A DNA stretch of 64,000 nt from Centroberyx gerrardi (taxonomy: Eukaryota > Chordata > Actinopteri > Beryciformes > Berycidae). Shown in pieces: positions 2,643 through 60,602 of the stretch. The stretch spans positions 10,700,621 to 10,764,620 of the forward strand of contig NC_136012.1 in the NCBI RefSeq assembly GCF_048128805.1. Direction: 5' to 3'. Positions within the stretch are counted from its first letter, which is position 1; every line of letters starts with the position of its first letter. The translations under genes and the position numbers were made by a program. Below the pieces are notes generated by a model. It saw only the letters and a program-made list of their open reading frames with translations. It had not been told where the DNA came from and ran no database searches.

Positions 2643-2663
2643 TTCAGCACCATGGACAGCGAT
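2643..2663 (+). promoter_or_regulatory. RE1/NRSE (REST site) upstream of A1
   Basis: The + strand reads TTCAGCACCATGGACAGCG, differing from the RE1 consensus (TTCAGCACCACGGACAGCG) at one central position. It lies 906 bp upstream of the A1 ATG and about 280 bp beyond the end of exon A2. REST binding would repress the gene outside neurons. The rest of this interval (2000-2944) holds a C11/A10 run near 2103-2123 and TAAA repeats near 2129-2150, and nothing else recognised. Confidence 0.8.
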
Positions 2664-2944
2664 ATACACTAAAATGACGAGCCTGGACCAAAAGATGACT
2701 GAGGAGATAGCTAACAAACAAGAGATGTACAGCAGGCCTATGTCACATCACCACAACGTCTTAAATTATATCTTACTTACATATTTGAATAAAAACGCAA
2801 TATCCATTAAAATGACATTTTATTGTCCACTACAAAACCCTTTGAGGTCAAGAAATAAATGGAAAGGGGCATCTTTTCACACTCAATTCAAGACATTAAA
2901 ATAGGAAACCATGGAGAAATATTTCTATGTTGTCATGTTCTTAC

Positions 2945-5326
2945 CTTTTCTTTGTTGGGTAAAGTCTGAGTCCGGCTAAAAGTGTCTCCTCCGTTAATAC
3001 TGATCAGTTCCGCATCTACAGGCGGAAACGGCGCGGGGAAAACCACTACGTCACTCTTCAGTGTGTCTGAGCTGAAACACACGTCATACTGCTGAGTAGA
3101 TTTAGAGTAAGACCAGCTCCCGTCAGGGTGGGTGGTGATCATTGGGGCGCTGTACCTGCTGAAACTGCCGTCTGTCCTGTGGCATTTGACAGCTATTAAA
3201 CTGATGAGGCTCAGTAGAAAGATCACTGACACCGACACAATGGCGATCAGCAAATACAGGTTTAAATCAGAGAAGCTCTCCTCCTTTATCGGCACGTGTC
3301 TGAATTGAGTCTGGATGTCAGCTGTGCTTTCAACCACCACGAGATCAATAGACACAGTAGCTGACAGGGAGGGTTCTCCGTTATCACAAACCAACACCAC
3401 TAACGGGTGAGTTTTCACGTCATTGTCACTCATTCGCCTCTTAGTCCTGATTTCCCCGGTGCTGGTTCCGATTCGGAAGAGGTTGGTTCCCTTGGGCTCA
3501 GAGATGTGATAAGAAAGCAGCGCATTGTAGCCAGAGTCTGCGTCTACAGCCCGGATCTTGGCCACAAAGTAGCCCGCTTCAGCAGAATAGGGAATGTTCT
3601 CACTGTTAACGGAGCCGTGCTCAGAATAGGGCGCGAGAATCCCAGGACTGTTGTCATTCTCATCCAGGATTAAAACGTTCACAGTAACGTTGGTGCTGAG
3701 CGGAGGAACACCAGAGTCTGTGGCCTGAACTTTAAACTGGAACGTTTTTAACTCCTCAAAGTTAAACGACTGCAGGCTGATTATATCTCCAGTCTCTGAG
3801 TTGATGTTTACCATTGTAGACAGAGGCAATGAGTTACTATTACTGTCTAAAAATGAATAGCTCACCTGGCCATTTTGATCGACGTCAGCATCAAGTGCAG
3901 ATACTGTTTTGAGAACTGCTCCTACTGGACTGTTCTCTTTTACGTAAATATTAATCACAGGCTCTGAGAAGCGAGGCGCGTTGTCATTGACATCAGAAAC
4001 GTGAACAGTAATAACACTGGTGTTCGAAAGAGGGGGAGTCCCTTCATCTGTAGCTATGATGGTGACGTCATAGTGAGAGGCATTCTCTCTGTCTAGGGGG
4101 GCATCAACTACCAAAGAGTAATAGTTCTTATAGTTTGTTTCCAATTTAAAGGGGGTCTTGTTATCTATTTTACAATGTACGTCTCCATTTTTGCCACCGT
4201 CCTTATCAAGCACTGACACAAGTGCAATAGCAGTACCTACTTTAGCGTCCTCCTTCACTGTGTTCAGTAGTGACGTCACAGTGATCTCAGGAGCGTTGTC
4301 ATTTACATCGACTACTTCTACCAGTACTTTACAATGAGCAGACATCGGAGGTTGTCCTTTGTCACTGGCCTGTGCACGAATTTCAAATGCAGGGTGTTGT
4401 TCAAAATCCACATTTCCTTCAACTGTTAATGTGCCTGTGTTTTGGTCGATTTTAAAAATCTCCAGTATATGGTCCTGCTCTTTTGTGCTGAGTGTATATA
4501 CGATTTCTTTGTTTGCTCCTTCGTCTGGGTCTGTAGCATTTAAAGTCAACAAAGTGGTTCCGGTAGGCACATTTTCAAACACACGAGTTTTATACAATGA
4601 CTTTGTAAACACTGGCGTATTATCGTTATTGTCTAAAACGTGTATTATGATATCTGAATTCCCCGACTTTGGTGGAGTTCCTCCGTCTAACGCCATCAGA
4701 GTAAGTGTGATCACAGGCTCTTTTTCTCGGTCTAAAGCTTTCTGCAATACTAACTCAGTGGATATACTCTCCCCTGCTTTGCTAACTGCTAATGAAAAAT
4801 GCTCATTAGAACTGAGCTTGTATGTGTTTATCCCATTCTTTCCTACGTCTGCATCGTAGGCTGACAATAGAGGGAACCGTATTCCGGGTAACGTGCTTTC
4901 AGCAATGTCTATGCTTTGCGACTTTTCAATGAAAGACGGAAAATTATCATTAACATCCAGTATGTTGATGTCGATCCGGTGAAGTTTAAGGGGATCATTT
5001 ATTACAGCCTCGACATTTACAGTACATGTTGCAGCTTTCGCACAGAGCTCCTCTCTATCTATTATCTCATTGACGTAGAGAATACCAGTCTCCATATTTA
5101 CCTCGAAATATTTTCTCTTTGATCCGGCAACAATCCTAAACATACGGGACTCCAAATCCTGTACATTGAGGTTTAGATCCTTAGCGATATTTCCAACAAA
5201 AGTCCCCGGGTTTACCTCCTCGGAGACGGAGTAAGAGAGCTGCCCGGACACCGTTTCCCAGTAACAACCCAGCACCACAAGCACTAGATATATCCCAGCG
5301 GAGCTCCTGCTATTCGGTAAAGACAT
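2945..5326 (-). CDS. Clustered protocadherin, alpha-like, variable exon A2
   Basis: The exon gives 794 residues. Signal peptide 1-28; EC1 29-128 with the CX5C loop at Cys95/Cys101; EC2 to about 236; EC3 to 344; EC4 to 449; EC5 to 559; EC6 to about 675; membrane segment about 690-713 ([20 protein letters not shown]); cytoplasmic stub 714-794. The stub contains [17 protein letters not shown] followed by [11 protein letters not shown], which resembles the GSWSYSQ and DLMAFSPSLP parts of mammalian PCDHA tails. The exon ends LPNKEK in phase 0 at the donor AAAAG/GTAAGA (intron begins 2944); reading on would add only three residues. An ATG at 5347 is in frame, but the one at 5326 (MSLPNS) is the position conserved in the family. 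EC1-EC4 are distinct from A3-A6; EC5-EC6 share the variants DII and PPLSTN with A3. Confidence 0.94.
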
Positions 5327-5594
5327 AATTCCATCCGACGTGAACATAGCATGGATTCAAATCCAATCGTTCCTTTAAAATAATCCAGACAAAGAGAATA
5401 TATATCGACTATTTAATAGGTGTTTTTTTTTCGTATCAGTAGCAACCAGAAAGCTGGCTGTCGCATGTACTCTCCCGTCCTGCGTCTCTTTGGAACAAAG
5501 CCCCGAGAAACGTTAACATCTCCTGACTCTGGGAGGGGCTTCAGCCCCAAAAGATAAATCTCAATGCTACGGTCTACACTGTCGCCGTGTGGTC
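5327..5594 (-). promoter_or_regulatory. Promoter region of A2 with CSE-like element
   Basis: CSE-like 23-mer at 5572-5594 (+ strand core CTACACTGTCGCCGTGTGG); GGGAGGGGC at 5531-5539; inverted repeat variant CTTTGGAACAAAG at 5488-5500. Spacing to the ATG matches A1. This copy is the most divergent in group A apart from A7, so the parts it keeps are the best guide to what matters. Confidence 0.65.
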
Positions 5595-5765: not shown

Positions 5766-5786
5766 TTCAGGACCATGGAGAGAACC
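5766..5786 (+). promoter_or_regulatory. RE1/NRSE-like site upstream of A2
   Basis: Reads TTCAGGACCATGGAGAG, a weaker RE1 match (changes at positions 6, 11, 15, 18 and 19 of the 21-mer). It sits 440 bp upstream of the A2 ATG and in the same orientation as the others. The remaining interval to exon A3 (5787-6492) contains a perfect 10-bp inverted repeat at 6023-6045 and a T/TTA-rich run near 6121-6170, and nothing else recognised. Confidence 0.6.
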
Positions 5787-6492
5787 TCGTGCCTCACTAT
5801 TAGGCTACAGTATGTAAGGTTGAAGCAACACAGCTGACAAAAGTTGATGTGCAGCAAGTTGTACAAATCCTATGACAATGTGGCAGGCAGAAAAGATGAA
5901 CGGAAACGGTAAAGAAAGGTATCTGTTTCTATTTTAAAACAAAACAGGCAAAGAGAGACTGACGTCAATTTCCAGAGTGGTACCTATCCTAAAACTTGAT
6001 GCTACTAATGACAATTGATGAAGCCTGTGGACTGGGTCCACAGGCCCCATGCCAGCAACGCTCGTGTGTACAACGCTCTTATGTAAAGATTAGAATCAAA
6101 TCATTTATTTGTGTTAACATCTTTTTTTTTATTTTATTATTATTTTATTATTATTATTATTTTTTTTTTATAACGACAGAAAACAATAATCCGTTTTATA
6201 AATTTTAAATAATAAGTGAAAACTTCAAAGGGGATAACGTTTTCGCTATAAGGTTTGATCGAAATTGTTTCCAACCAAAAGGATATACGAGAGTATTATA
6301 CAAAACTAAAAGTAAATCCACTGGAGAGTGTTAGAGGTCACTTTGACACAAAGGCAAAGGTTTCCGAAATGTGATGTATCTTTTTCCCCCCTAAGAGGTA
6401 TTAGAAGGCTACAAACATTGTGTTCAAGGACAAATAGCATGAAAAACGAATAGATGTATAAACAATGGATAGCATTTGTTTATTGGACTTAC

Positions 6493-8874
6493 CTTTTCTG
6501 TATTCGGTAAAGTCTGAGTCCGGTTAAAAGTGTCCCCTCCGTTAATACTGATCAGCTCCGCATCTACAGGCGGAAACGGCGCGGGGAAAACCACTACGTC
6601 ACTCTTCAGTGTGTCTGAGCTGAAACACACGTCATACTGCTGAGTAGATTTAGAGTAAGACCAGCTCCCGTCAGGGTGGGTGGTGATCATTGGGGCGCTG
6701 TACCTGCTGAAACTGCCGTCTGTCCTGTGGCATTTGACAGCTATTAAACTGATGAGGCTCAGTAGAAAGATCACTGACACCGACACAATGGCGATCAGCA
6801 AATACAGGTTTAAATCAGAGAAGTTCTCCTCCTTTATCGGCACGTGTCTGAACTGAGTCTGGATGTCAGCTGTGCTTTCAACCACCACTACATCAATAGA
6901 CACAGTAGCTGACAGGGAGGGTTCTCCGTTATCACAAACCAACACCATCAACGGGTGAGTTTTCACGTCATTGTCACTCATTCGCCTCTTAGTCCTGATT
7001 TCCCCGGTGCTGGTTCCGATTCGGAAGAGGTTGGTTCCCTTGGGATCAGAGATGTGATAAGAAAGCAGCGCATTGTAGCCAGAGTCTGCGTCTACAGCCC
7101 GGATCTTGGCCACAAAGTAGCCCGCTTCAGCAGAATAGGGAATGTTCTCACTGTTAACGGAGCCGTGCTCAGAATAGGGCGCGAGAATCCCGGGACTGTT
7201 GTCATTTTCATCGAGGATTAAAACGTTCACAGTAACGTTGGTGCTGAGCGGAGGAACACCAGAGTCTGTGGCCTGAACTTTAAACTGGAACGTTTTTAAC
7301 TCCTCAAAGTTAAAAGACTGCAGGCTGATTATATCTCCAGTCTCTGAGTTGATGTTTACCATTGTAGACAGAGGCAATGAGTTACTATTACTGTCTAAAA
7401 ATGAATAGCTCACCTGGCCATTTTGATCGACATCAGCATCAACTGCTGATACTGTTTTAATGGTTGCTCCCACTTTACTGTTCTCTTTCAAGTAAACATT
7501 AATCACAGGCTCTGAGAAGCGAGGCGCGTTGTCATTGACATCAGAAACGTGAACAGTAATGATGCTGGTGCTGGAGAGAGGTGGGGTCCCTTCATCAGTT
7601 GCTACGATAGTGACATTGTACTGGGCCTTACTTTCTCTGTCAAGTCTCCCGTTGACAATTAAAGAATAATAATTTTTGTAGTTTGTTTCCAATTTAAAGG
7701 GAGGTTCATTTGCGATAACAGCCTGCACTTCACCGTTTTTCCCACCATCTTTATCCAGCACAGAGACAAGTGCAATAGCAGTACCTACTTCAGCGTCCTC
7801 CTTCACTGTGTTCAGTAGTGACGTCACAGTGATCTCAGGAGCGTTGTCATTCACATCTATTACTTCTACCAGCACTTTACAATGAGCAGACATCGGGGGT
7901 TGTCCTTTGTCACTGGCCTGTGCGTGAATCTCAAACGCAGGATTTTCTTCATAGTCGATCTCACCTTTCACTAAGATTGCACCAGTTTTAGGATCAATTT
8001 GAAATACATCTAATACGTGATCCTGACCTTTACTTCTTAAAGAGTATTCTATTTCACTGTTTAAACCTTCATCTGCGTCTGTTGCGTTCAAAATTAACAC
8101 TGTTGTCCCCGTTGTCAAGTTCTCCAAAATTTGGGTTTTATACAAAGAACTACTAAACACTGGAGGGTTGTCGTTAATATCTAAAACGTTGATAATGATT
8201 TGTGATGTTCCCGACTTGGGTGGAGTTCCTCCGTCGAGTGCAGTTAATGTGAGTTTTATAATAGGTTGTTTCTCGCGGTCTAAAGATTTCTGCAGCACTA
8301 ACTCGGCAGATACACTCTCTCCCCCTTTGTGTACTTCTAAAGAAAAATAATCATTCGTATTGAGCTTGTATGTATTTACATTGTTCTTACCAACATCCAC
8401 ATCTGATGCCTCTATCAGTCCAAATTTCACTCCTGGTAAAGTACTTTCGGCAATGTTAAGAGACTGTAAATGCTCAGAGAAAAAAGGTGCATTATCATTT
8501 ATATCTAATACGTTTATCACTAAACGATAAAGCTTCAAAGGATTATTGATTACGGCCTCTATATTTACAGTACATTTTGTAGCCTTCGCACAAAGCTCCT
8601 CCCGGTCTATTTTCTCATTGACATAAAGAACACCAGTCTTTAGATTTACATCGAAATATTTTCTCTTTGATCCGGTAACAATCTGAAACATCCGGGACTC
8701 CAAATCCTGGACATTAAGATTAAGATCCTTAGCGATATTTCCAACAGAAGTCCCCGGGTTTACCTCTTCTGATACGGAGTAAGAGAGCTGCCCAGACACC
8801 GCTTCCCAGTAACAATCCAGCAGCAAAACCACTAGATATATCCCAAAAGGGCTCCTTCTGCTCGAGAACAACAT
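6493..8874 (-). CDS. Clustered protocadherin, alpha-like, variable exon A3
   Basis: 794 residues with the same plan as A2: signal peptide ([11 protein letters not shown] start), six EC repeats, membrane segment, alpha-like stub. The ATG at 8874 is the only good start; the open frame continues upstream but without an in-frame ATG in the conserved place. The exon ends LPNTEK in phase 0 at AAAAG/GTAAGT; the frame would continue 22 residues into the intron before a stop. EC1 to EC4 are almost identical to A4 (a handful of substitutions in EC2-EC3, for example VGKNN/VGTNN and LDINDN/LDNNDN). EC6 variants HISDPKG are shared with A4 and PLMVLV with A7. Unlike its neighbours, A3 lacks the conserved block just downstream of the donor. 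Confidence 0.94.
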
Positions 8875-9136
8875 AATTATATCCAACGTGGACAAAGCAT
8901 AGATCCAAATCCGAACAATCTCGACAAAAAATCAAATTAAGAGTAAAAAACAAGAATCCCTTCTCTATGCATTTTGAACAGCCAACAGGAAAATGGTTGT
9001 CGCACCGTTCACTCTCGCCCTGCGTCTCTTTGTAACAAAGCCCTGAGAAACATCATCAAGCCCTGAATCTGGGAGGAGCCTCAAGCCACCAAAGAGAACG
9101 TCCAAATGTGATGGTCTACAATGTCCCCATGTGGTC
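8875..9136 (-). promoter_or_regulatory. Promoter region of A3 with CSE-like element
   Basis: CSE-like 23-mer at 9114-9136 (+ strand core CTACAATGTCCCCATGTGG); GGGAGGAGCC from 9071; inverted repeat CTTTGTAACAAAG at 9028-9040 next to the GTCGCACCGTTC and CTCGCCCTGCGTC blocks also present at A1, A5 and A6. Confidence 0.65.
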
Positions 9137-9682: not shown

Positions 9683-9703
9683 TGCAGCACCATGGACAGC
9701 GGT
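9683..9703 (+). promoter_or_regulatory. RE1/NRSE upstream of A3
   Basis: Reads TGCAGCACCATGGACAGCGG; against consensus it changes only the second base and the central C. It lies 809 bp upstream of the A3 ATG and 261 bp beyond the end of exon A4. The adjoining CATTCAGACGCTT is also conserved next to the A1, A4 and A5 sites. The remainder of 9137-9963 is AT-rich and shows no other feature. Confidence 0.78.
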
Positions 9704-9963
9704 ATACTTCACAAATAATAGTGGCTGAGAAGAAAAACTGACAAAGAAGAGAAGTGTCAAGCCACCAGATTGTCTTAAATTTAGTGCTCTCTTTTAACAA
9801 AAAGGCAAAGTCCATTAAAAATGCCTTTTTTTAATTCTTAGCATAAAATCATTTAAGTTAAAAGTAAAGCATAACAAATGGAGGGATATCTTTTTCACAC
9901 TTGGCTCTCGACAGTAAAGTAGGGAAACGATGGAGAAATATTTCTGTCTCGTCATGCTCTTAC

Positions 9964-12345
9964 CTTTTCTTTGCTGGGTAAAGTCTGAGTCCGGTTAAAA
10001 GTGTCTCCTCCGTTAATACTGATCAGCTCCGCATCTACAGGCGGAAACGGCGCGGGAAAAACCACTACGTCACTCTTCAGTGTGTCTGAGCTGAAACACA
10101 CGTCATACTGCTGAGTAGATTTAGAGTAAGACCAGCTCCCGTCAGGGTGGGTGGTGATCATTGGGGCGTTGTACCTGCTGAAACTGCCGTCTGTCCTGTG
10201 GCATTTGACAGCTATTAAACTGATGAGGCTCAGTAGAAAGATCACTGACACCGACACAATGGCGATCAGCAAATACAGGTTTAAATCAGAGAAGCTCTCC
10301 TCCTTTATCGGCACGTGTCTGAATTGAGTCTGGATGTCAGCTGTGCTTTCAACCACCACTACATCAATAGACACAGTAGCTGACAGGGAGGGTTCTCCGT
10401 TATCACAAACCAACACCACCAACGGGTGAGATTTCACGTCATTGTCACTCATTCGCCTCTTAGTCCTGATTTCCCCGGTGCTGGTTCCGATTCGGAAGAG
10501 GTTGGTTCCCTTGGGATCAGAGATGTGATAAGAAAGCAGCGCATTGTAGCCAGAGTCTGCGTCTACAGCCCGGATCTTGGCCACAAAGTAGCCCGCTTCA
10601 GCAGAATAGGGAATGTTCTCACTGTTAACGGAGCCGTGCTCAGAATAGGGCGCGAGAATCCCGGGACTGTTGTCATTCTCATCCAGGATTAAAACGTTCA
10701 CAGTCACGTTGCTGCTGAGCGGGGGAACACCAGAGTCTGTGGCCTGAACTTTAAACTGGAACGTTTTTAACTCCTCAAAGTTAAAAGACTGCAGGGTGAC
10801 TATATCTCCAGTCTCTGAGTTGATGTTTACCATTGTAGACAGCGGCAGTGAGTTACTATTACTGTCTAAAAATGAATAGCTCACCTGGCCATTTTGATCG
10901 ACATCAGCATCAACTGCTGATACTGTTTTAATGGTTGCTCCCACTTTACTGTTCTCTTTCAAGTAAACATTAATCATCGGCTCTGAGAAGCGAGGCGCGT
11001 TGTCATTGACATCAGAAACGTGAACAGTAATGATACTGGTGCTGGAGAGAGGTGGGGTGCCTTCATCAGTTGCAACGATAGTGACATTGTACTGGGCCTT
11101 ACTTTCTCTGTCAAGCTTCCCATTGACTACTAACGAATAATATTTTTTGTAGTTTGTTTCCAATTTAAAGGGAGGTTCATTTACGATAACAGCCTTGACT
11201 TCACCGTTTTTCCCACCATCTTTATCCAGCACAGAGACAAGTGCAATAGCAGTACCTACTTTAGCGTCCTCCTTCACTGTGTTCAGTAGTGACGTCACAG
11301 TGATCTCAGGAGCATTGTCATTTAGATCAATTACTTCTACCAGCACTTTACAATGAGCAGACATCGGGGGTTGTCCTTTGTCACTGGCCTGTGCGTGAAT
11401 CTCAAACGCAGGATTTTCTTCATAGTCGATCTCACCTTTCACTAAGATTACACCGGTTTTAGGATCAATTTGAAATACATCTAATACGTGATCCTGACCT
11501 TTACTTCTTAAAGAGTATTCTATTTCACTATTTAAACCTTCATCTGCGTCTGTTGCGTTCAAAATTAACACTGTTGTCCCCGTTGTCAAGTTCTCCAAAA
11601 TTTGAGTTTTATACAAAGAACTACTAAACACTGGAGGGTTGTCGTTATTATCTAAAACATTGATTATGATTTGTGATGTTCCCGACTTGGGAGGAGTTCC
11701 TCCGTCTACTGCCGTCAATGTGAGTTTTATACTAGGCTGTTTCTCGCGGTCTAAAGATTTCTGCAGCACTAGCTCGGCAGATACACTCTCTCCCCCTTTG
11801 TGTATTTCTAAAGAAAAATAATCATTCGTATTGAGCTTGTATGTATTTACATTGTTCGTACCAACATCCACATCTGATGCCTCTATCAGTCCAAATTTCA
11901 CTCCTGGTAAAGTACTTTCAGCAATGTTAAGAGACTGTAAATGCTCAGAGAAAAAAGGTGCATTATCATTTATATCTAAGACGTTTATCTCTAAACCATA
12001 AAGCTTCAATGGATCATTGATTACGGCCTCTATATTCACAGTACATTTTGTAGCCTTCGCACAAAGCTCCTCACGGTCTATTCTTTCATTGACATAAAGA
12101 AGACCAGTCTTTAGATTTACGTCGAAATATTTTCTCTTTGATCCGGTAACAATCTGAAACATCCGGGACTCCAAATCCTGGACATTAAGATTAAGATCCT
12201 TAGCGATATTTCCAACAGAAGTCCCCGGGTTCACCTCTTCTGATACGGAGTAAGAGAGCTGCCCAGACACCGCTTCCCAGTAACAATCCAGCAGCAAAAC
12301 CACTAGATATATCTCAAAAGGGCTCCTTCTGCTCGAGAACAACAT
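9964..12345 (-). CDS. Clustered protocadherin, alpha-like, variable exon A4
   Basis: 794 residues, start [11 protein letters not shown] at the conserved ATG (12345). Six EC repeats with intact DxNDN linkers, CX5C in EC1 (CAKATKC), membrane segment and alpha-like stub. The exon ends LPSKEK in phase 0 at AAAAG/GTAAGA. The protein is nearly the same as A3 through EC1-EC4, and carries its own private changes in the common half (YNAPM in the tail, DVKSHPL in EC6, DIVTLQ in EC5). It is flanked by A3 and A5 at a unit spacing of about 3.5 kb, consistent with tandem duplication. Confidence 0.94.
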
Positions 12346-12597
12346 AATTATATTCAACGTGAACAAAGCATAGATCCAAATCTGACCAATATCGTATAAA
12401 AATCAAATTAAGAGCGAAATACACTAATCCACTCTGTTTAATGCCAACAGGAAAATGGTTGTCGCACCGTTCTCTCTCGCCTGCATTTCTTTGTAACAAA
12501 GCCCTGAGAAACATCATCCTCCTCTGATTCTGGGAGGAGCCTCAAACCTCCAAACAGAACGTCCAAATGTGATGGTCTACAATGTCCCCATGTGGTC
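12346..12597 (-). promoter_or_regulatory. Promoter region of A4 with CSE-like element
   Basis: CSE-like 23-mer at 12575-12597, identical in core to A3; GGGAGGAGC at 12532-12540; inverted repeat at 12489-12501. A short deletion between promoter and ATG brings the CSE to about 241 bp, ten bases nearer than in A3. Confidence 0.63.
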
Positions 12598-13188: not shown

Positions 13189-13209
13189 TTCAGCAACATG
13201 GACAGCGGC
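13189..13209 (+). promoter_or_regulatory. RE1/NRSE upstream of A4
   Basis: Reads TTCAGCAACATGGACAGCGG; compared with consensus, one change in the left half (AAC for ACC) and the usual central T. It lies 844 bp upstream of the A4 ATG. The rest of the interval 12598-13473 is AT-rich, matches the A3 and A5 intervals in stretches, and shows no other feature. Confidence 0.72.
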
Positions 13210-13473
13210 CAACACATATAATGGTGACAGAATAACGGGCAAAGAAGAGATGTATGTCAAGCCACCACACTGTCTTCAGTTATATATTAGTGCTCTCTTT
13301 TAACAAAAAGGCAAAGTCCATTAAAAAATACATTTGTTGTTGACTTCTTAGCATAAAATCATTTAAGTTCAAAGTAAAGCAAAACAAATGGAGGGATATC
13401 TTTTTCACACTTGGCTCTCGACAGTAAAGTAGGGAACCGATGGAGAAATATTTCTATCTCGTCATGCTCTTAC

Positions 13474-15855
13474 CTTTTCTTTGCTGGGTAAAGTCTGAGT
13501 CCGGCTAAAAGTGTCCCCTCCGTTAATACTGATCAGTTCCGCATCTACAGGCGGAAACGGCGCGGGGAAAACCACTACGTCACTCTTCAGTGTGTCTGAG
13601 CTGAAACACACGTCATACTGTTGAGTAGATTTAGAGTAAGACCAGCTCCCGTCAGGGTGGGTGGTGATCATTGGGGCGCTGTACCTGCTGAAACTGCCGT
13701 CTGTCCTGTGGCATTTGACAGCTATTAAACTGATGAGGCTCAGTAGAAAGATCACTGACACCGACACAATGGCGATCAGCAAATACAGGTTTAAATCAGA
13801 GAAGCTCTCCTCCTTTACCGGCACGTGTCTGAACTGAGTCTGGATGTCAGCAGTGCTTTCAACCACCACTACATCAATAGACACAGTAGCTGACAGGGAG
13901 GGTTCTCCGTTATCACAAACCAACACCACCAACGGGTGAGTTTTCACGTCATTGTCACTCATTCGCCTCTTAGTCCTGATTTCCCCGGTGCTGGTTCCGA
14001 TTCGGAAGAGGTTGGTTCCCTTGGGCTCAGAGATGTGATAAGAAAGCAGCGCATTGTAGCCAGAGTCTGCGTCTACAGCCCGGATCTTGGCCACAAAGTA
14101 GCCCGCTTCAGCAGAATAGGGAATGTTCTCACTGTTAACGGAGCCGTGCTCAGAATAGGGCGCGAGAATCCCGGGACTGTTGTCATTCTCATCCAGGATT
14201 AAAACATTCACAGTCACGTTGCTGCTGAGCGGAGGAACACCAGAGTCTGTGGCCTGAACTGTAAACTGGAACGTGTTTAACTCCTCAAAGTTAAAAGACT
14301 GCAGGCTGACTATATCTCCAGTCTCTGAGTTGATGTTTACCATTGTAGACAGCGGCAGTGAGTTACTATTACTGTCTAAAAATGAATAGCTCACCTGGCC
14401 ATTTTGATCGACATCAGCATCAACTGCTGATACTGTTTTAATGGTTGCTCCCACTTTACTGTTCTCTTTCAAGTAAACATTAATCACAGGCTCTGAGAAG
14501 CGAGGCACGTTGTCATTGACATCAAAAACGTGAACAGTAATGATGCTGGTGCTGGAGAGAGGTGGGGTCCCTTCATCAGTTGCTACGATAGTGACATTGT
14601 ACTGGGCCTTACTTTCTCTGTCAAGCGGCCCATTAACTACTAACGAATAATAGTTTTTGTAGTTTGTTTCCAATTTAAAGGGAGGTTCATTTGCAATAAC
14701 AGCCTGGACTACACCGTTTTCCCCACCATCTTTATCCAGCACAGAGACAAGTGCAATAGCAGTACCTACTTTAGCGTCCTCCTTCACTGTGTTCAGTAGT
14801 GACGTCACAGTGATCTCAGGAGCGTTGTCATTTACATCAATTACTTCTACCAGCACTTTACAATGAGCAGACATCGGAGGTTGTCCTTTGTCACTGGCCT
14901 GTGCGTGAATCTCAAACGCAGGATTTTCTTCATGGTCGATCTCACCTTTCACTAAGATTGCACCGGTTTTAGGATCAATTTGAAAAACATCTAATACGTG
15001 ATCCTGACCTTTACGTCGTAAAGAGTATTCTATTTCACTATTTAAACCTTCATCTGCGTCTGTTGCGTTCAAAATTAACACTGTTGTCCCCGTTGTCAAA
15101 TTCTCTAAAATTTGAGCTTTATACAAAGAACTACTGAAAACGGGAGCGTTGTCGTTATTATCTAAAACATTGATAATGATTTGTGATGTTCCCGACTTGG
15201 GTGGATTTCCTCCGTCTACTGCAGTTAATATTAGTTTTATACTAGCCTGTTTCTCTCGGTCTAAAGATTTCTGCAGCACTAGCTCGACCCCCACACTCTC
15301 TCCCCCTTTGTGTATTTCTAAAGAAAAATAATCATTCGTATTGAGCTTGTATGTATTAACATTGTTCTTACCAACATCCAAATCCGATGCCCCTATCAGT
15401 CCAAATTTCCCTCCTGGCTCAGTACTTTCAGCAATGTTAAGAGACTGTAAATGCTCAAAGAAAAAAGGTGCATTATCATTTATATCTAATACGTTTATCA
15501 CTAAACGATAAAGCTTCAAAGGATCATTGATTACGGCCTCTATGTTTACAGTACATTTTGTAGCCTTCGCACACAGCTCCTCCCGGTCTATTTTCTCACT
15601 GACATAAAGAACGCCAGTCTTGAGATTTACGTCGAAATATTTTCTCTTTGATCCGGTAACAATCTGAAACATCCGGGACTCCAAATCCTGGACATTAAGG
15701 TTAAGATCCTTAGCGATATTTCCAACAGAGGTCCCCGGGTTCACCTCTTCTGATACGGAGTAAGAGAGCTGTCCAAACACTGCTTCCCAGTAACAATCCA
15801 GCAGCAAAACCACTAGATACATCCCAAAAGGGCTCCTTCTGATCGGGAACAACAT
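13474..15855 (-). CDS. Clustered protocadherin, alpha-like, variable exon A5
   Basis: 794 residues, start [11 protein letters not shown] at the conserved ATG (15855); the open frame upstream lacks a conserved Met. Plan as in A2. The signal peptide ends AVFG rather than AVSG before QLSYSV, which leaves the small residue at -1 unchanged. EC2-EC3 are close to A3/A4/A6, with private changes such as [15 protein letters not shown] and LRRKGQDH. The EC4-EC5 linker is DVNDNVP. EC5 has LNTFQFTVQ where the siblings have LKTFQFKVQ. Ends LPSKEK in phase 0 at AAAAG/GTAAGA. Confidence 0.94.
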
Positions 15856-16117
15856 AATTATATCCAACGTGGATAAAACATAGATCCAAATCAGACCAAT
15901 CCCGTCAAAAATCAACGTAAGAGCGAAATACAACAATCCATTCTCTGTGCATTTGTAACGGCCAACGGGGAAATGGTTGTCGCACCGTTCTCTCTCGCCC
16001 TGCGTCTCTTTGTAACAAAGCCCTGAGAAATATCTTCATCCTCTGAATCTGGGAGGAGCTTCAAACCTCCAGAAACAATCGTCCAAATGTGATAGTCTAC
16101 AATGTCCCCATGTGGCC
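15856..16117 (-). promoter_or_regulatory. Promoter region of A5 with CSE-like element
   Basis: CSE-like 23-mer at 16095-16117 (+ strand core CTACAATGTCCCCATGTGG, then CC where A3 has TC); GGGAGGAGC at 16051-16059; inverted repeat CTTTGTAACAAAG at 16008-16020. The whole region is close to identical to that of A6. Confidence 0.65.
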
Positions 16118-16703: not shown

Positions 16704-16724
16704 TTCAGAACCATGGACAGCGGT
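16704..16724 (+). promoter_or_regulatory. RE1/NRSE upstream of A5
   Basis: Reads TTCAGAACCATGGACAGCGG; one change in the left half plus the central T. 849 bp upstream of the A5 ATG. Between promoter and site, about 16166-16365 is nearly identical to 19680-19880 in the next interval, marking a recent duplication. Confidence 0.75.
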
Positions 16725-16988
16725 ATACACATGTAATAGTGACTGAGAAGAAAAAGCTGAAAAAGAAAGGTGTATGTCAAGCCACCAGATTGTCTTCAGT
16801 TATATTAGTGCTCTCTTTTAACAAAGAGGCAAAGTCCATTAAAAAACGACATTTTTTGTTGACTTGTTAGCAAAAAATCATTCAAAGTAAAGCAAAACAA
16901 ATGGAGGAGCATCTTTTTCACACTTGCGACTCACGACAGTAAAATAGGGGACCAATGGAGAAATATTTATTTGTTGTCATATTCTTAC

Positions 16989-19370: not shown

Positions 19371-19632
19371 AATTCTATCCAACGTGGACAAAACATAGAT
19401 CCAAATCAGACCAATCCCGTCAAAACTTCAAATTAAGAGCGAAATACAATAATCCATTCTCTATGCATTTGTAACAGCCAACGGGAAATGGTTGTCGCAC
19501 CGTTCTCTCTCGCCCTGCGTCTCTTTGTAACAAAGCCCTGAGAAATATCTTCATCCTCTGAATCTGGGAGGAGCCTCAAACCTCCAGAAACAACCGTCCA
19601 AATGTGATGGTCTACAATGTCCCCATGTGGCC
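19371..19632 (-). promoter_or_regulatory. Promoter region of A6 with CSE-like element
   Basis: CSE-like 23-mer at 19610-19632, core as in A5; GGGAGGAGC at 19566-19574; inverted repeat at 19523-19535. Near-identical to the A5 promoter, so A5 and A6 are expected to respond to the same factors. Confidence 0.65.
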
Positions 19633-20205: not shown

Positions 20206-20226
20206 TTCAGCACCATGGACAGCGGC
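20206..20226 (+). promoter_or_regulatory. RE1/NRSE upstream of A6
   Basis: Reads TTCAGCACCATGGACAGCGG, one of the best matches in the window (central C to T only in the first 19 bases). 836 bp upstream of the A6 ATG. The rest of 19633-20362 duplicates the A5 interval, with small deletions, and has no other recognised feature. Confidence 0.82.
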
Positions 20227-20362
20227 ATACATATATAATAATGACTGAGAAGAAAAGAGGTGTGTGAGAACTTACCAGATTGTCTTTAATTATATACTAT
20301 TACTCTCTATTAACAAAAAGGCAAATAGTTGGAGAAATATTTCTATGTTGTCATGTTCTTAC

Positions 20363-22747: not shown

Positions 22748-22998
22748 AGTTCTATCCAGCCTGAACAAAGCATAAATCCAAATTGCCAATCCAGGTCAAA
22801 TATTTCAGACAGTAAGGAAGATATCAGTCGAAGTGAGCTTTAAATACAGACGGTATAGACGAATCTGTTCTTCCCTCGTCCGTCGTCTCTTTATAACAAA
22901 GCCTTCAGAAATGTCCCTGCCATCTGAAAACGGGAGGGGCCTAGATATGCCAGAGAGTAGCGCTCACTCCGATGGATCAACAGTGGCGCCACGTGGTA
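22748..22998 (-). promoter_or_regulatory. Promoter region of A7 with the most CTCF-like CSE
   Basis: CSE-like 23-mer at 22976-22998 (+ strand core CAACAGTGGCGCCACGTGG), which by eye is the closest in the window to the reverse form of the CTCF consensus (GCGCCAC..TGG). GGGAGGGGC at 22932-22940; inverted repeat variant CTTTATAACAAAG at 22889-22901. Confidence 0.65.
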
Positions 22999-45813: not shown

Positions 45814-46058
45814 ATTGGATTTCAAAAACAACGAAAAAATTCCGTAGAATTTAAATAGTCAGTCTACACTGTAAAAGCGAGCTCAGGCATCATGAACAAA
45901 AATGAAAACTGTTAACCTTAAAAAATGACACTCGAGATATAGTTGGATCCATCCTCCTAAAGCACAAATGCGAAATAACCAATAACTGAGTGGCAGGCTG
46001 TTCTACTGAGGCCCTACTGAGGGGCGTTATTGTACATGTGCACTGACACCTTACGATC
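45814..46058 (-). promoter_or_regulatory. Promoter region of B1 with CSE-like element
   Basis: CSE-like 23-mer at 46036-46058 (+ strand core GCACTGACACCTTACGATC), centred about 235 bp before the ATG. Its right half is the most divergent of group B (CTTACG for CATGCG). The GGGTGGG box of other group B promoters is reduced to GGGGCG near 46021. Confidence 0.55.
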
Positions 46059-46371: not shown

Positions 46372-46398
46372 TTCAGCACTAGTGGATTGGACAGCGAC
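46372..46398 (+). promoter_or_regulatory. Split (expanded-spacing) RE1/NRSE upstream of B1
   Basis: Left half TTCAGCACT (46372-46380) and right half GGACAGCGAC (46389-46398) are separated by 8 bp instead of 2. REST is known to bind half-sites with such widened spacing. Same orientation as the other RE1s, 559 bp upstream of the B1 ATG. Its first three bases belong to the SINE target-site duplication. Confidence 0.6.
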
Positions 46399-46534
46399 CA
46401 CAACGGAATTAGATGCTGCACCATATGTGAATCTGGATCGACTACTTACAACCTAAAACTTTAACTAGTTCCATGGATTACCAGTTACTACAGACAATAC
46501 ACAGCATAGACACACATACCAGTAATGTCCTTAC

Positions 46535-48895
46535 CTCTCCAGATGCCCGCCTTCTGTCGGGGACCACGAGAGTATTTCCATTGCTGCCCGGAACTATAGT
46601 AGAACCTATACTCATTCTGGGTCCAACTAACATGTATCGTCTGTCTCCAGATCTGTACTGGATGCTGTGGCACAGTGTCCCATCATAATTTGTGTCTTGT
46701 AAATACTTGGACGAATAGTCGGTGGGTTTGGAGCACTGCATTACAATCAACACAATGATACTGATGAGAAAAAGTGCAGAAACTGAGCCCAAAGTTATCA
46801 TCAGAAAAAATGTCACATTGTTCTCCTCCTCGTCTTTTGCTGCACTTTTAACATCAGAAGCTGCAAAAGCCTCTTTGGGCTCCACAGCTTTGATAATTAC
46901 AGTAGCTGTTGCTGAGAGTGAAACGTTCCCATTGTCTTTTACCAGTATGACCAGTTTATGCTCAGCCTCGTCTGTCTCTGTGAATGACCGAAGTGTTCTT
47001 ATCTGTCCTGTATAGCGGTCCAAAGCAAAGAGACTGTGGTCAGTCACTTCCTGCAGCGAAAATAATAACCAGCCGTTATATCCTATATCAGCGTCATAGG
47101 CTCTCACTTTAGTCACCAAATGTCCTGCGTTCACATTGCGGGGAATCTCCTCCACACCTTCAGCAGAACCGTTAGCGCTGACTGGATACAAGATGACAGG
47201 AGCGTTGTCGTTCTGATCCAGAATGAACACGTTCACTGTGACGTTGCTGCTTAGTGATGGAGTTCCAGAGTCTGAGGCAACAACTTGGAAGTGGAATGTT
47301 TTCATTGTTTCAAAGTCAAAACTTTTTAGAGCCAAAATATCTCCACTTTCGGAGTTAATGTTTAAGAACGAAGCAAGAGTATTTTCTCCGCCACTATCTC
47401 TCAGAATGTGATATGAAATAAGAGCATTGTTACTCTCGTCATAATCGGTGGCTCTTACTGAAAACACTGAGGCTCCCAGCGCGTTATTCTCTGCAATATA
47501 GAACGTATAGGGGCTCAGAGAAAACTCTGGACTATTATCATTCACATCTGATACAGCAACACTTATTGTCTTTACACATGACAATGATGGCTCACCTGTG
47601 TCCTTAGCAACTATTGTAAGATCATATAGAGACTTTTGTTCTCTGTCTAATTGTGAATTGGTAACTATAGCGTACATGTTATCTTGTAATGATGGAGATA
47701 AAGTAAAAGGAACATCCTCACTTATAAAGCATGTAACTTTTCCATTGAGGCCTGAATCCAAATCACTGACACTGATCAGAGCTACAGTTGTTCCAATTCT
47801 AGAATTCTCGGGGACTGATTTTGAAAGTGATGTAACATCAATCTCGGGGACGTTATCGTTAAGGTCGATTACATTTATTATTACAGTTTTGTCTGTGGAC
47901 AAAGGAATAATGCCCTTATCTGAGGCCTGTATATCAATTTCATAGTTTTTATTTTCTTCGAAATCAATCACACCTGTAACTTTTATTTCGCCAGTCTTTG
48001 GGTCTATATTAAATAGTTTACGCAAATCTATATCTACTTCTTTACCAAATGAATAAACGATTTCGCCGTTTGCACCATCATCCAAATCTGTAGCATTAAC
48101 CCGAATCACTAATGTGCCAGGGGTTGCGTTTTCATTTAACATGGCAGTGTATATGTTATTTGTAAAAACTGGCGAATTGTCATTAACATCAAGCACCTCA
48201 ATCAGTATTTCGATCATTCCGGACTTCGCGGGCCGCCCACCATCAATAGCTGTAAGTAGAAGCTTGTGCTCTCTTATAGCTTCTCTGTCTAACTGCTTCT
48301 GTAAAATCAGAAAAGGCATCTTACGGTCTTCGCCTCTTTCCTTGACTTCCAAACGAAAGTGATCATTGTGGCTGAGTTTATACTGCTGAACAGAAAACTG
48401 ACCACCGTCTGGGTCACGTGCAGCCTGGAGCTGGAATCTTGCTCCTGGTAATGTTGATTCAAATATCTCTAGTCGTTTCTCTTTCTCCGGAAAGCTGGGG
48501 GAATGGTCGTTTACATCCAGCACCTCTATGGTCACATAATGGATTTCCAGAGGATTTTCTAGCACGGTTTTAAGGTTGATTATACACACGTTGCTTCGCT
48601 CACAAACCTCTTCCCTATCCACTTTCCTATTGACATACAAGATACCATCGTCCTGGTTCAACAGGAAAAGGGGCTCCCTTGAGCTGCCTACAATACGATA
48701 ATCTCTATCTTTCAATGTGGTCTTATCAAGCCCTAAATCTTTCGCAATGTATCCAACGACTGTTCCTTCTTTCACTTCTTCAGAGATGGAATATCTGATC
48801 TGAGCTGAAGCTCCGCTCCAAAGCGTAACCAAAGCGACCATGTAGGCGACACATCTGCATCGCTCTCTCCACGCCAGACGTCTTCTTTGTTCCAT
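46535..48895 (-). CDS. Clustered protocadherin, beta/gamma-like, variable exon B2
   Basis: 787 residues. Signal peptide 1-31 ([10 protein letters not shown] start; SGASA before QIRYS); EC1 32-131; EC2 to 240; EC3 to 348; EC4 to 454; EC5 to 564; EC6 to about 680; membrane segment about 696-719; stub 720-787. CX5C in EC1 is CERSNVC. EC4 contains an unusual lone Cys ([10 protein letters not shown]; siblings have SSKKTIS or SSEKTIS). Ends RRRASGE in phase 0 at GGAGAG/GTAAGG. Tail variant YLQDTNY is shared only with B1. Start chosen because MEQRR recurs in B3-B6. Confidence 0.95.
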
Positions 48896-49146
48896 GGTAT
48901 GCAGATAAAAATATAGTAGTCCCCAGATCTATAATTGTATATTCAAAAAAGCTTCCCCAGTCATATTCCTTTCCAAAATGCGCTCCTTCGCCAACAGAAC
49001 GTTAGAAATCATATGGAGTCTAGTCTCGGTTCAAGCCGTTAACACACACATGATTGTACCAATGCCGAAATATAAGGGATGGGCCTAACGACTATGACGA
49101 AAAGCTGTAGAAGCATTATTTGCCTTTTCACTGACACCATGCGATT
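48896..49146 (-). promoter_or_regulatory. Promoter region of B2 with CSE-like element
   Basis: CSE-like 23-mer at 49124-49146 (+ strand core TCACTGACACCATGCG); GGGATGGGCC at 49076-49085; CCAATGCCGAAATA, with a CCAAT box, at 49059-49072. The same order is seen at B3 and B6. Confidence 0.62.
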
Positions 49147-49420: not shown

Positions 49421-49441
49421 GTCAGCACCAAGGAGAGCGAC
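49421..49441 (+). promoter_or_regulatory. RE1/NRSE-like site upstream of B2 (proximal)
   Basis: Reads GTCAGCACCAAGGAGAGCG: good left half, right half GGAGAGCG with C to G at a position where REST tolerates either base. 526 bp upstream of the B2 ATG. Confidence 0.65.
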
Positions 49442-49957: not shown

Positions 49958-49978
49958 GTCAGCACCCTGGACAGCAGT
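49958..49978 (+). promoter_or_regulatory. RE1/NRSE upstream of B2 (distal)
   Basis: Reads GTCAGCACCCTGGACAGCA, a strong match to both halves. 1063 bp upstream of the B2 ATG and 248 bp beyond exon B3's end, so this interval has two sites. The rest of 49147-50225 shows no gene. Confidence 0.7.
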
Positions 49979-50225
49979 TGAATAGATTCAGCAAATGTAT
50001 AGAAAGACGCCAGAAAAGTTTGAGATAAAACAACCCCCTGCAATTTAACAACATTGGATGAAATTGATATTCATCAACACCTAGTGTTCACGAGGCTCTC
50101 TGTGAACCACTTTCCGGAAAGCACAATATGGTAATCTGTGATTGTGGGAACCTAAATATGTAATAAAAAAAAATAAAAAAAACTACAGAGAGCGGTATTG
50201 CTGTTACACGATTAATTGTCCTTAC

Positions 50226-52583
<2,358 letters not shown>

Positions 52584-52851
52584 GGTTAAAAACGAGATTA
52601 ATAATCCTTCACGAGAACAATAACTGCGTTACAGAGACAGTATCCAACACATCCATTAATGCAAATGTTCATCCTCTTCCCAAAATGTTCGAAATGCAGG
52701 CACATTTAAAGTGTCAGCCGTAAAGTCACAAACGATTCTGCCAATGTCGAAGTAATAATAGCTACTGTCAAGGGGTGGAACCAAAATCCAATGACGAAAC
52801 GCTTATGTGAAGCCGTTATTTTTCAAGTAGCTACAATGACACCATGCGTTC
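52584..52851 (-). promoter_or_regulatory. Promoter region of B3 with CSE-like element
   Basis: CSE-like 23-mer at 52829-52851 (+ strand core CTACAATGACACCATGCG), intermediate between group A and group B forms since it keeps CTACAATG. GGGGTGGAAC at 52772-52781; CCAATGTCGAAGTAAT from 52741. Confidence 0.64.
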
Positions 52852-53332: not shown

Positions 53333-53353
53333 TTCAGCACCATGGACAGCGAT
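53333..53353 (+). promoter_or_regulatory. RE1/NRSE upstream of B3
   Basis: TTCAGCACCATGGACAGCG followed by AT, identical over 21 bases to the A1 site although the genes belong to different groups. 750 bp upstream of the B3 ATG. Confidence 0.82.
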
Positions 53354-54100: not shown

Positions 54101-54160
54101 TGGAAAAGTCACAAATCATCAAAGCAAGAACTATGCACTTTTAATCAAAACATCTCTTAC

Positions 54161-56521
54161 CTCTCCAGATGCCCGCCTTCGGTCGGGGACCACTAGAGTA
54201 TTCCCATTGCTGCCCGGGACTATAGTAGAACCTATACTCATTCTGGGTCCAACTAACATGTATCGTCTGTCTCCAGATCTGTACTGGATGCTGTGGCACA
54301 GTGTCCCGTCGTAATTTGCGTCTTGCAAATATTTAGAGGAATTGTCTGCGGTTTTGGAGCACTGCATCACAATCAAGACGATGATACTGATTAGGAAAAG
54401 CGCTGAAACTGAGCTTAAAGTTATGATCAGATAGAATGTCACATTGTTATCCTCGTCATCCTTTGCTGCACTTTTAACATCAGAAGCTGCAAAAGCCTCT
54501 TTCGGCTCCACAGCCTTGATAATCACAGTTGCTGTTGCTGAGAGTGGAACGTTCCCATTGTCTTTTACCAGTATGACCAGTTTATGCTCAGCCTCGTCTG
54601 TCTCTGTGAATGACCGAAGTGTTCTTATCTGTCCTGTATAGCGGTCCAAACCAAAGAGACTGTGGTCACTCACTTCCTGCAGCGAAAATAATAACCAGCC
54701 GTTATATCCTATATCAGCGTCATAGGCTCTCACTTTAGTCACCAAATGTCCTGCGTTCACATTGCGGGGAATCTCCTCCACACCTTCAGCAGAACCGTTA
54801 GCGCTGACTGGATACAAGATGACTGGAGCGTTGTCGTTCTGATCCAGAATGAACACGTTCACTGTGACGTTGCTGCTTAGTGATGGAGTTCCAGAGTCTG
54901 TGGCAACAACGTGGAAGTGGAATGTTTTCAGTGTTTCAAAGTCAAAACTTTTCAGCGCGAAAATATCTCCATTTTCGGAGTTAATGTTTACAAACGACGA
55001 TAGAGCATTTTCTGTTACACTATCCCTTAAAATATGATATGAAATAAGAGCATTATCACCCTCGTCACGATCAAAGGCTTTCACTGAGAAAACAGAGTCT
55101 CCTGGAACGTTATTCTCATAAATGTAGAAGGTATATGGGTACAGTGAAAACTCTGGACTGTTATCATTCACATCTGATACAACAATGCTTATTGTCTTTT
55201 CAGATGACAAGGATGGTGCACCTGCATCTTTAGCAACTATTGTTACATCATAATAAGATTGTTGTTCTCGATCCAAAGCCGATTTGGTGACTAGAGAGTA
55301 CATGTTATTCTGTAAAGATGGACTGAGCATAAAAGGAACATCTTGATTTATAAAACACATAACTTTTCCGTTGAGACCAGAGTCTGAGTCTTTTAAACTA
55401 ATCAACGCTACTGTGGTTCCTGGTTTGGAATCTTCCGGGAGAGCACGAGAAAAAGATGTCACCTCGATCTCGGGTGCATTGTCGTTTACATCAACGATAT
55501 TTATAATAACGCTTTTGTCTGTTGTCAGTGTAGCCGTACCCTTGTCGGATGCCTGGATGTCAATTTCATATCTGCCACTCTCTTCAAAATCTATGACTCC
55601 TGCCACAGTTATTTCTCCCGTCAGTGGGTTTAAATCAAAACGTGCACGTACCTTTGCATCCACGTCATTGCCTAATGAATATACAACTTCGCCATTTGAA
55701 CCTTCATCTAAATCTGTTGCATTGACTTGTATAATCGTCGTACCAAGGGGGGGATTTTCCTTTAGCTGCACAGTGTAGGAGTCCTTGGTGAAGACTGGAG
55801 GGTTATCATTGACATCAAAGACATCTACAATTATTCTCATGCTTCCAGACCTTGGAGGCTTACCTCCATCAACGGCTGTGAGAAGTAATATATGGGTCTT
55901 GACAGATTCTCTATCAAGTGGCTTTTGGAGAACTAGACTAGGAGTTTTACGGTCCTCACCACGATCTTTCACCTCCAAACGAAAATGTTCATTATGACTC
56001 AACTTATACTGCTGAACAGATAATGGGCCACTATCAGCGTCACGCGCAGCTTGTAACTGAAATCTTGCTCCTGATAATGCAGATTCAGGAATCTCTAGCA
56101 TCTTTTCATTTTCGGGGAAGCTTGGAGAGTGGTCGTTTACATCCAAAATCTCCACCGCTACATAATGGACTTCCAGTGGGTTTTCTAACACCGTTTTTAA
56201 GTCGATCAAACAAACCTTGCTTCGGTCGCACACTTCCTCTCTGTCAATTTTCCGGTTCACATACAAAATACCATCGTCCTGATTTACCCGGAAAGGAGGC
56301 TCTGTAGAGCCATACACAATACGATACGCTCTATCTTTCAGTGTGGTCTTATCGAGACCTAAATCCTTTGCAATGTTTCCAACATCAGTTCCTTCTTTCA
56401 CTTCTTCAGAGATGGAATATCTGATCTGAGCTGAAACTCCACTCCAAAACGTAACCAAAGCCACCATGTAGGCGGCCAACTGCCTCCGCTGTCTCCACGC
56501 CAGGCGTCCTCTTTGTTCCAT
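54161..56521 (-). CDS. Clustered protocadherin, beta/gamma-like, variable exon B4
   Basis: 787 residues, start [10 protein letters not shown] at 56521 (the frame opens further upstream only through a non-ATG codon). Signal end SGVSA before QIRYS. EC1 CX5C is CDRSKVC. The N-terminal 50 residues resemble B2, and so does the 5' flank, suggesting B2 and B4 are closest relatives. The stub begins [11 protein letters not shown] where all others have [13 protein letters not shown]6 reads [10 protein letters not shown] and NVPLSATAT. Ends RRRASGE in phase 0 at GGAGAG/GTAAGA. Confidence 0.95.
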
Positions 56522-56779
56522 GGCGTACAAATAAAAAAAAAAGGGATCCACAGATCTAAAATTGTATAACGACGCAAACTGTCCCCGTCATATTCGTTAT
56601 CAAAATGCGCTCCTTCATCAACAGAGCGTTAGAAATCACATGGAGGCTAGATTCTGTGTTCAAGCTGTTAACACGCACATGATTCTACCCATGACAAAAT
56701 AGACGAAAAGGATGGGTCTAATGGCTACGTTAAAAATTTGTAGAAGCATTATTTGCCATTACACTGACACCAAGTGACC
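56522..56779 (-). promoter_or_regulatory. Promoter region of B4 with CSE-like element
   Basis: CSE-like 23-mer at 56757-56779 (+ strand core ACACTGACACCAAGTGACC); GGATGGGTC at 56710-56718; CCCATGACAAAATA at 56688-56701. The CSE ends AAGTG like group A rather than ATGCG. Confidence 0.6.
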
Positions 56780-57343: not shown

Positions 57344-57344
57344 A

Positions 57345-57415: not shown

Positions 57416-57436
57416 TTCAACACCACGGATAGCGAC
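57416..57436 (+). promoter_or_regulatory. RE1/NRSE upstream of B4
   Basis: Reads TTCAACACCACGGATAGCG. It is the only site with the consensus CACGG centre; two changes elsewhere. 895 bp upstream of the B4 ATG, 47 bp past the SINE tail. Confidence 0.65.
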
Positions 57437-57520: not shown

Positions 57521-57541
57521 TTCATAACCATGGACAATGAT
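57521..57541 (+). promoter_or_regulatory. Weak RE1-like site between B4 and B5
   Basis: Reads TTCATAACCATGGACAATG; core ACCATGGACA kept, flanks degraded. Probably a decayed duplicate of the neighbouring RE1. Confidence 0.4.
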
Positions 57542-57776
57542 AAACTTGATCCCGAAAATTTCTATAAGGAAGCCAGCACTTACGATGGAGGCCAACCCCT
57601 CAAACTCAAGAACATTGAATTAAATTTATATTAATTGTAACTCTTATAGTCTCTCCATAAACATTTTTTTGGAAAAGGAAATGTTGGTAACTTGTGGCGT
57701 GGACACACAGATATGTTGTAAAACTGAATTACAGTCAATAGAATCAGTATTATACTGTGTTATATATTGTCCTTAC

Positions 57777-60137
<2,361 letters not shown>

Positions 60138-60409
60138 GACTTGAAGGTAACAAAGAATAGTCCACTAAATTTGTCGTATTATGAAGGAGACGTTGTATGT
60201 CATGTTCCTGAACGTAATCCAAGGTATGCCTTCTGCAGATTGATGAAAAAAGAATGTAGATATTGCTCACGAATCGTAAGCTCACAAGCAACTATGCAGT
60301 TTGATAAAAATCGCAGTCACTATTAAGGGTGGGCCAGAATAAAGCCTGTGACGAAAGGCTCTGCGAGAGCCATACACTTACAACCAACCTACACTGACAC
60401 CATGCGTTC
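60138..60409 (-). promoter_or_regulatory. Promoter region of B5 with CSE-like element
   Basis: CSE-like 23-mer at 60387-60409 (+ strand core CTACACTGACACCATGCG), the most typical group B copy; GGGTGGGCC at 60327-60335. No CCAAT-type block was recognised. Confidence 0.63.
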
Positions 60410-60581
60410 AAGTGCTACACTAGTGAGTTTTCTCTCAGTCTGAAAAACTTTTCAACAAATCAAAGTTCGGCATACAATCTGTAGAGACAGTACAATCCTG
60501 CCTTGATTGGGATGGATATAAGAAATCCCATTGGGGATTTCGGTTTTGAAACGATGTGTTATACTAGCGCATAGCTTAAGA

Positions 60582-60602
60582 TTCAGCACCAGGGAGAGCA
60601 AC
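60582..60602 (+). promoter_or_regulatory. RE1/NRSE upstream of B5
   Basis: Reads TTCAGCACCAGGGAGAGCA; perfect left half, right half with the tolerated C to G. 445 bp upstream of the B5 ATG. Nothing else seen in the rest of 60410-61025. Confidence 0.68.

Follow-up and report, generated by a model that had tools for sequence, protein, structure and literature searches.

RE1-type sites upstream of protocadherin variable exons in Centroberyx gerrardi and their orientation in the alpha and gamma arrays

The locus described here raises the question why an RE1 (NRSE), the type of site that is bound by REST, stands upstream of almost every one of its variable exons, and why these sites all face the same way in the stretch where they were noticed. 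This stretch, the window, comprises 64,000 nucleotides of the 779-Mb genome of Centroberyx gerrardi (C16:10700621-10764620). Its initial annotation suggested that REST silences each promoter through a site that had been duplicated together with the exon, and pointed out that silencing of Pcdh clusters through NRSEs is known in vertebrates. According to excerpts of a review, fugu Pcdh promoters carry NRSEs, and deletion of the NRSE from Pcdh constructs leads to ubiquitous expression in transgenic Xenopus (PMC3601302). The promoter arrangement is, therefore, mostly known in kind, with prior art in fugu protocadherins. As far as these excerpts go, the fugu system (Tan et al. 2010, Nucleic Acids Res 38:4985, via PMC3601302) resembles ours in being a teleost Pcdh locus with promoter NRSEs, whose REST-dependent neural restriction was tested in Xenopus, and the difference is possibly one of species.

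The arrays and the sites of the window

The window holds 13 protocadherin frames, large, single and all on the minus strand, seven of which belong to group A and six to group B (Table 1). Four of the 13 were taken for a Pfam scan, and cadherin domains were found in all four; comparison with PDB sequences took two. In 250 kb of stitched neighbouring DNA there are 56 open frames of protocadherin type, and we count 52 of them as array exons (28 of group A and 24 of group B), keeping apart exon 0, which is nearest to the constant exons, and exons 53-55, which form a third group. A search with a human alpha constant protein gave two alpha constant exons, at C16:10608048-10608007 (E 0.001) and C16:10604284-10604147 (E 1.7e-5), for which a splice acceptor and a donor were read in the sequence; a third alpha constant exon was not found by this search. 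The two exons are downstream of both group A and group B, and the 20-kb spacer contains no credible constant exon, its sole match, obtained with a gamma query, having an E value no better than chance (7.4). For this reason groups A and B are, judged by the constant exons, two alpha subclusters, and both would be spliced to the alpha constant exons. The claim of about one same-facing site per alternative promoter in two subfamilies can, accordingly, be kept for both exon groups, but not the division into subfamilies.

Large single variable exons with shared alpha constants downstream are what characterises a teleost Pcdh2 alpha array, and the two alpha subclusters resemble the three alpha paralog subclusters of fugu Pcdh2 that are described in excerpts of PMC1852091. 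A gamma constant exon, the mark of gamma arrays, is located at C16:10239788-10239946 (E 3.2e-16), downstream of two further arrays; a second gamma constant match, at about C16:10246 kb, is weak (E 0.09).

Table 1. Variable exons, RE1-type sites and CSE-like elements of the window (positions are those of the window)
Feature	Position	Strand	Remarks
Group A variable exon	1..1743	-	runs on past window start
Group A variable exon	2933..5347	-	cadherin domains (Pfam)
Group A variable exon	6424..8895	-	open frame
Group A variable exon	9952..12366	-	open frame
Group A variable exon	13462..15936	-	open frame
Group A variable exon	16977..19391	-	open frame
Group A variable exon	20351..22789	-	cadherin domains (Pfam)
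Group B variable exon	43399..45831	-	cadherin domains (Pfam)
Group B variable exon	46478..48895	-	open frame
Group B variable exon	50088..52583	-	open frame
Group B variable exon	54131..56551	-	open frame
Group B variable exon	57750..60137	-	open frame
Group B variable exon	61008..63464	-	cadherin domains (Pfam); sole window exon without upstream RE1
Canonical RE1	2643..2663	+	0 core mismatches; upstream of group A exon ending 1743
Weak RE1	5766..5783	+	3 core mismatches; upstream of exon 2936..5356
Canonical RE1	9683..9703	+	1 core mismatch; upstream of exon 6427..8931
Canonical RE1	13189..13209	+	1 core mismatch; upstream of exon 9955..12402
Canonical RE1	16704..16724	+	1 core mismatch; upstream of exon 13465..16035
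Canonical RE1	20206..20226	+	0 core mismatches; upstream of exon 16980..19427
Canonical RE1	23192..23212	+	0 core mismatches; upstream of exon 20354..22795; at spacer edge
Noncanonical RE1	46372..46395	+	8-bp gap, both half-sites exact; upstream of exon 43402..45858
RE1	49421..49441	+	2 core mismatches; upstream of exon 46481..48928
RE1	49958..49975	+	1 core mismatch; second in interval that also holds 49421
Canonical RE1	53333..53353	+	0 core mismatches; upstream of exon 50091..52628
RE1	57416..57436	+	2 core mismatches; upstream of exon 54134..56587
Very weak RE1-like	57521..57538	+	4 core mismatches; not significant alone
RE1	60582..60602	+	1 core mismatch; upstream of exon 57753..60164
CSE-like element	1982..1997	-	group A, gene-sense, 3 mismatches
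CSE-like copies, group A	starts 5577, 9119, 12580, 16100, 19615, 22981	-	3 mismatches each
CSE-like element	49129..49144	-	group B, gene-sense, 1-3 mismatches
CSE-like copies, group B	starts 52834, 56762, 60392, 63641	-	1-3 mismatches

The sites of the window agree with the definition of an RE1, namely the half-sites TTCAGCACC and GGACAGC separated by a 2-bp gap or, in the noncanonical class, by 7-9 bp. They were scored by mismatch counts, with shuffle, reversed-motif and permuted-motif controls. At up to three mismatches, the core TTCAGCACCNNGGACAGC is matched at 12 places of the window, while 100 dinucleotide shuffles gave a mean of 0.56 and a largest value of 4; for the longer RE1 pattern the figures are 10 in the window and 0.00 in shuffles. 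Together with the split site at 46372 there are 13 sites, all on the plus strand and antisense to the genes, and 12 of the 13 exons have one upstream, 0.40-0.90 kb from the open frame. For exon 61011..63500 an upstream site was not found, DNA past the window edge included, and the spacer interior contains just two canonical matches, each with four mismatches, one per strand. To this extent the initial annotation proved accurate: the 14 sites that it listed read as described, the comparison with shuffled sequence that it proposed, carried out by mismatch counting, separates the set from the background, and the upstream site of 12 exons, the common strand opposite to the genes (13 of 13), the spacer interior without RE1 and the identity of the sites at 2643 and 53333 (its A1 and B3) over 21 bases were all found again.

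In human PCDH alpha and gamma, according to excerpts of PMC8096226, NRSEs lie within each alternate exon, as well as in HS5-1 and HS7; human REST binds directionally, and it also binds noncanonical sites with a 7-9 bp gap, whose ninth base, C, shows hardly any conservation. Our locus shares with the human one about one NRSE per alternate exon and the two classes of site, and the 46372 site, where the gap follows the ninth base and this base is T, corresponds by its gap to the noncanonical class bound by human REST in HS5-1 (PMC8096226, excerpts). The human sites lie inside variable exons, as the same excerpts describe, whereas 48 of the 50 canonical matches of the alpha region lie outside open frames.

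RE1 sites and promoter layout across the alpha region

In the 250 kb there are 50 canonical matches with up to three mismatches on the plus strand and 0 on the minus strand, so that every one of them is antisense to the genes, compared with 0 for the reversed motif and a mean of 0.86 for permuted motifs. Open frames, outside which all but two of these matches are found, make up 55% of the DNA. At four mismatches the strand bias vanishes (27 on the plus strand and 31 on the minus strand), and 27 of the 31 minus-strand matches belong to a single homogenised coding stretch in group A. This stretch, ACCAGCACCGGGGAAATCAGG, which has four mismatches on the sense strand and is present in 27 of the 28 group A exons, was considered as a coding RE1 of the human kind and was not counted, because its right half is poor and it represents one homogenised coding stretch. 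It is invariant near EC6 codon 597 (for instance, at window positions 3449, 6997 and 10468) and is probably homogenised coding sequence.

An upstream site was detected for 43 of the 52 array exons, canonical in 25 of 28 exons of group A and 16 of 24 of group B, with two noncanonical ones added in group B, and was not detected for the other 9. Beyond the window a canonical upstream site is present in 18 of 21 group A and 12 of 18 group B exons. When the gap was scanned in the alpha region at up to two mismatches, 44 matches were obtained at gap 2 and five at gap 8 on the plus strand, all other gaps, or the minus strand, giving at most one each; five of the eight noncanonical matches overlap canonical sites. 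For exon 0 and exons 53-55 there is no antisense site within 2.5 kb (less DNA was covered above exon 55), and exon 0 has two antisense canonical matches farther up, at 4.8 and 10.7 kb.

Several single observations belong to the same region. Exon 0 (C16:10612172-10614859) has a sense noncanonical match with a 9-bp gap and one mismatch at C16:10615943, and at C16:10904139, toward the distal 5' end of the locus, the plus strand has an exact RE1 of the noncanonical class, its gap being 8 bp. Exons 17 and 18 (C16:10682505-10688654) are, by shared RE1 sequences and flanks, recent unit copies that include promoter DNA, as are exons 7, 9 and 12 of the 250-kb stretch.

The same promoters contain an element similar to the Pcdh conserved sequence element (CSE), which is a CTCF-type promoter site according to excerpts of PMC4978886 and PMC3601302. 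It resembles the CSE of these sources in its gene-sense orientation and in its distance from the start codon, some 0.2-0.3 kb on the upstream side; counted from the mature N-terminal codon, the distance here is about 0.3 kb. At up to three mismatches all 12 window matches are in the sense of the genes (1.83 expected), and the match is better on the sense strand in 51 of the 52 array exons, exon 52 being tied at five mismatches, with the reservation that the pattern was derived from group B itself and that several matches in group A, with 4-6 mismatches, are weak. The form of the element follows the group: 8 exons of group A have GTCGCTGGAG with CGCT, and in group B the form lacks CGCT, a difference also described for zebrafish alpha in the excerpts of PMC4978886 and PMC3601302. 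The RE1 lies beyond the CSE, 0.4-1.4 kb upstream of the mature N-terminal codon. A CTCF consensus scan of group A gave weak matches, some of them inside the signal-peptide coding region, and the CSE positions were used instead.

Orientation in the gamma arrays

Upstream sites in the sense of the gene are present in 13 of the 18 gamma exons examined, and 9 of these 13 sites are noncanonical. In the array nearest to the gamma constants (C16:10255-10290 kb, 35 kb) such sites belong to six of nine exons, all noncanonical and all sense, with a gap of 8 or 9 and no more than one mismatch; a canonical match at up to three mismatches was not found in this array. The second array (C16:10363-10390 kb) has them in six of eight exons, at up to two mismatches; all are sense, and the canonical and the noncanonical class account for three each. 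A lone gamma exon at C16:10299-10303 kb has a sense canonical site with two mismatches. These counts are to be read with the short upstream DNA of the last exon of each gamma piece (1134 bp in the first and 214 bp in the second). An exact noncanonical site at C16:10290178 is the antisense exception. A sense match at 10363552 (three mismatches) falls on an exon end and was left out of the count, and an antisense match with a 10-bp gap and two mismatches is outside the accepted gaps. The gamma-type arrays in which most of the exons examined have a sense RE1 upstream were read at C16:10255954-10288866 and 10363553-10389786.

Fisher's test of 50 antisense and 0 sense sites in alpha (canonical) against 1 and 12 in gamma (canonical and noncanonical) gives 4.9e-12, a value that is descriptive only, since the sites are not independent, and that excludes the site at 10302135. 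In the exons examined, all or nearly all sites of one array share a polarity, and that of gamma is the reverse of that of alpha. The single orientation proposed initially holds for the canonical alpha sites (50 of 50) but not for the gamma arrays of the same locus; their sense-facing sites rule out a universal orientation rule, and a particular orientation relative to the gene is apparently not required. We met no earlier description of array-specific RE1 polarity in the sources cited here, the fugu system having been compared through excerpts of a review (PMC3601302).

Origin of the sites and rival explanations

The primary sites of 41 paralogous units have 0.86 identity over 16 motif positions and their flanks 0.27-0.28 (ungapped), which supports numerically the proposal that the sites are better conserved than the flanking DNA, but the figure is biased, as the sites were chosen by motif; it is supportive and not independent, and the counts are better evidence. 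Gapped local alignment, at the threshold used, divides the flanks of the 41 primary sites into 21 groups. The sites of all 21 face one way, although the units are related by descent and their orientations cannot be counted as independent. Flank pairs above the 99th percentile of shuffles amount to 15% for A-A, 9% for B-B and 1% for A-B. Flanks of group A could not be aligned with those of group B beyond shuffles, which leaves a common origin of the sites in the two groups unsupported. Duplicated units keep their RE1s, in line with the suggestion that the site was duplicated with the exon, and the orientation most resembles a relic left by the duplication of units.

The best reading, in our opinion, is that the RE1s are REST silencers which were passed on whenever an exon unit was duplicated and which selection has maintained, and we would assign a probability of about 0.88 to this model as a whole, including REST silencing outside neurons. 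Motifs in the number, position and orientation given above, the CSE-like element, constant exons and a REST-like zinc-finger gene are all present in this genome; the gene, at C16:28.07 Mb, was recognised by its similarity to a human REST query, with 74% and 72% identity in two pieces. Binding of REST, silencing and release in Centroberyx gerrardi would probably proceed as follows. Each alternative first exon would have its own promoter with two serial elements, a sense CSE and then, farther upstream, an antisense RE1. In non-neuronal cells and progenitors REST on the RE1 would recruit corepressors and the promoter would be closed, and in neurons the loss of REST would release the array, so that CTCF and the enhancer could choose among its promoters stochastically. 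Since the RE1 would belong to the duplicating unit, its copies in one array would share orientation, and selection would have retained the motif while the flanks diverged. Fugu genes without an NRSE of their own are reportedly controlled by the NRSEs of their neighbours (in the 2010 work of Tan et al.), which argues against a strictly separate silencing of units. Against the model itself count the 9 array exons for which a site was not detected, and exon 0 and exons 53-55, above which no antisense site was found within 2.5 kb.

The uniform orientation could also be functional in itself, if an antisense REST site upstream of a sense CTCF site were the required geometry, for example, for hindering CTCF/cohesin looping to the enhancer. 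Such a rule would agree with the antisense direction of 50 of 50 canonical alpha matches across the 21 flank groups, with the sense direction that the CSE-like element has in these promoters (all 12 window matches) and with the reduction of enhancer-promoter contacts by REST at HS5-1 in mammals (PMC8096226, excerpts). We consider it improbable, since gamma upstream sites face the other way (6 of 9, 6 of 8 and 1 of 1 exons, against the one at 10290178) and common descent alone could give the uniformity within an array. Spreading of the RE1s with no selection on the site, through a mobile element or a repeat that was homogenised recently, would fit the near-identical recent copies among the units, promoter DNA included, and the recurrence of the RE1-like 21-mer TTCAACACCATGGACAGCGCC among the genome matches listed; it appears very improbable in view of the flank pairs, most of which are unalignable, and of the 211 bases around 53333, for which a genome search (one flank searched) returned only the query locus, single-copy surroundings that rule out a mobile-element origin of this particular site. 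Hardly any weight goes to the view that the matches arose by chance, from base composition or through a coding repeat. The weakest sites, 57521 and 5766, would indeed not stand alone, and matches at four mismatches occur on both strands, but this view is refuted for the whole site set by the shuffle, reversed and permuted controls and by the location of nearly all canonical matches at up to three mismatches outside open frames.

With inherited REST silencers as the preferred reading, it may be further suggested, tentatively and as a rather doubtful extension, that RE1 polarity and class are both array-specific, mostly canonical and antisense in alpha and mostly noncanonical and sense in gamma, the gamma sites having been gained independently or inverted, and that the arrays may answer to different REST levels. 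If this is true, canonical versus noncanonical binding could cause one array to be released before the other as REST falls in neurogenesis. The observed contrast between alpha, with its 52 exons, and gamma, read in a long contiguous assembly, offers a natural comparison of whether RE1 orientation and class matter in the staged release of neuronal identity genes, and we see this polarity contrast as the part worth following.

On the scale of the genome, a pattern with 15 fixed bases gives 804 matches versus 0 for the reversed control, and the longer RE1 pattern at up to three mismatches gives 2,134 versus 22; the density of RE1s in the window is about 57 times that of the genome. On C11, the windows upstream of two protocadherin-like exons have canonical matches only at four mismatches, one per strand. 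The 21-mer mentioned above recurs many times on C1-C3 among the matches listed, all of which have 0-1 mismatches, and this suggests a repeat family that carries an RE1-like site, and at C2:38070969-38071162 five tandem RE1 matches are located within 200 bases.
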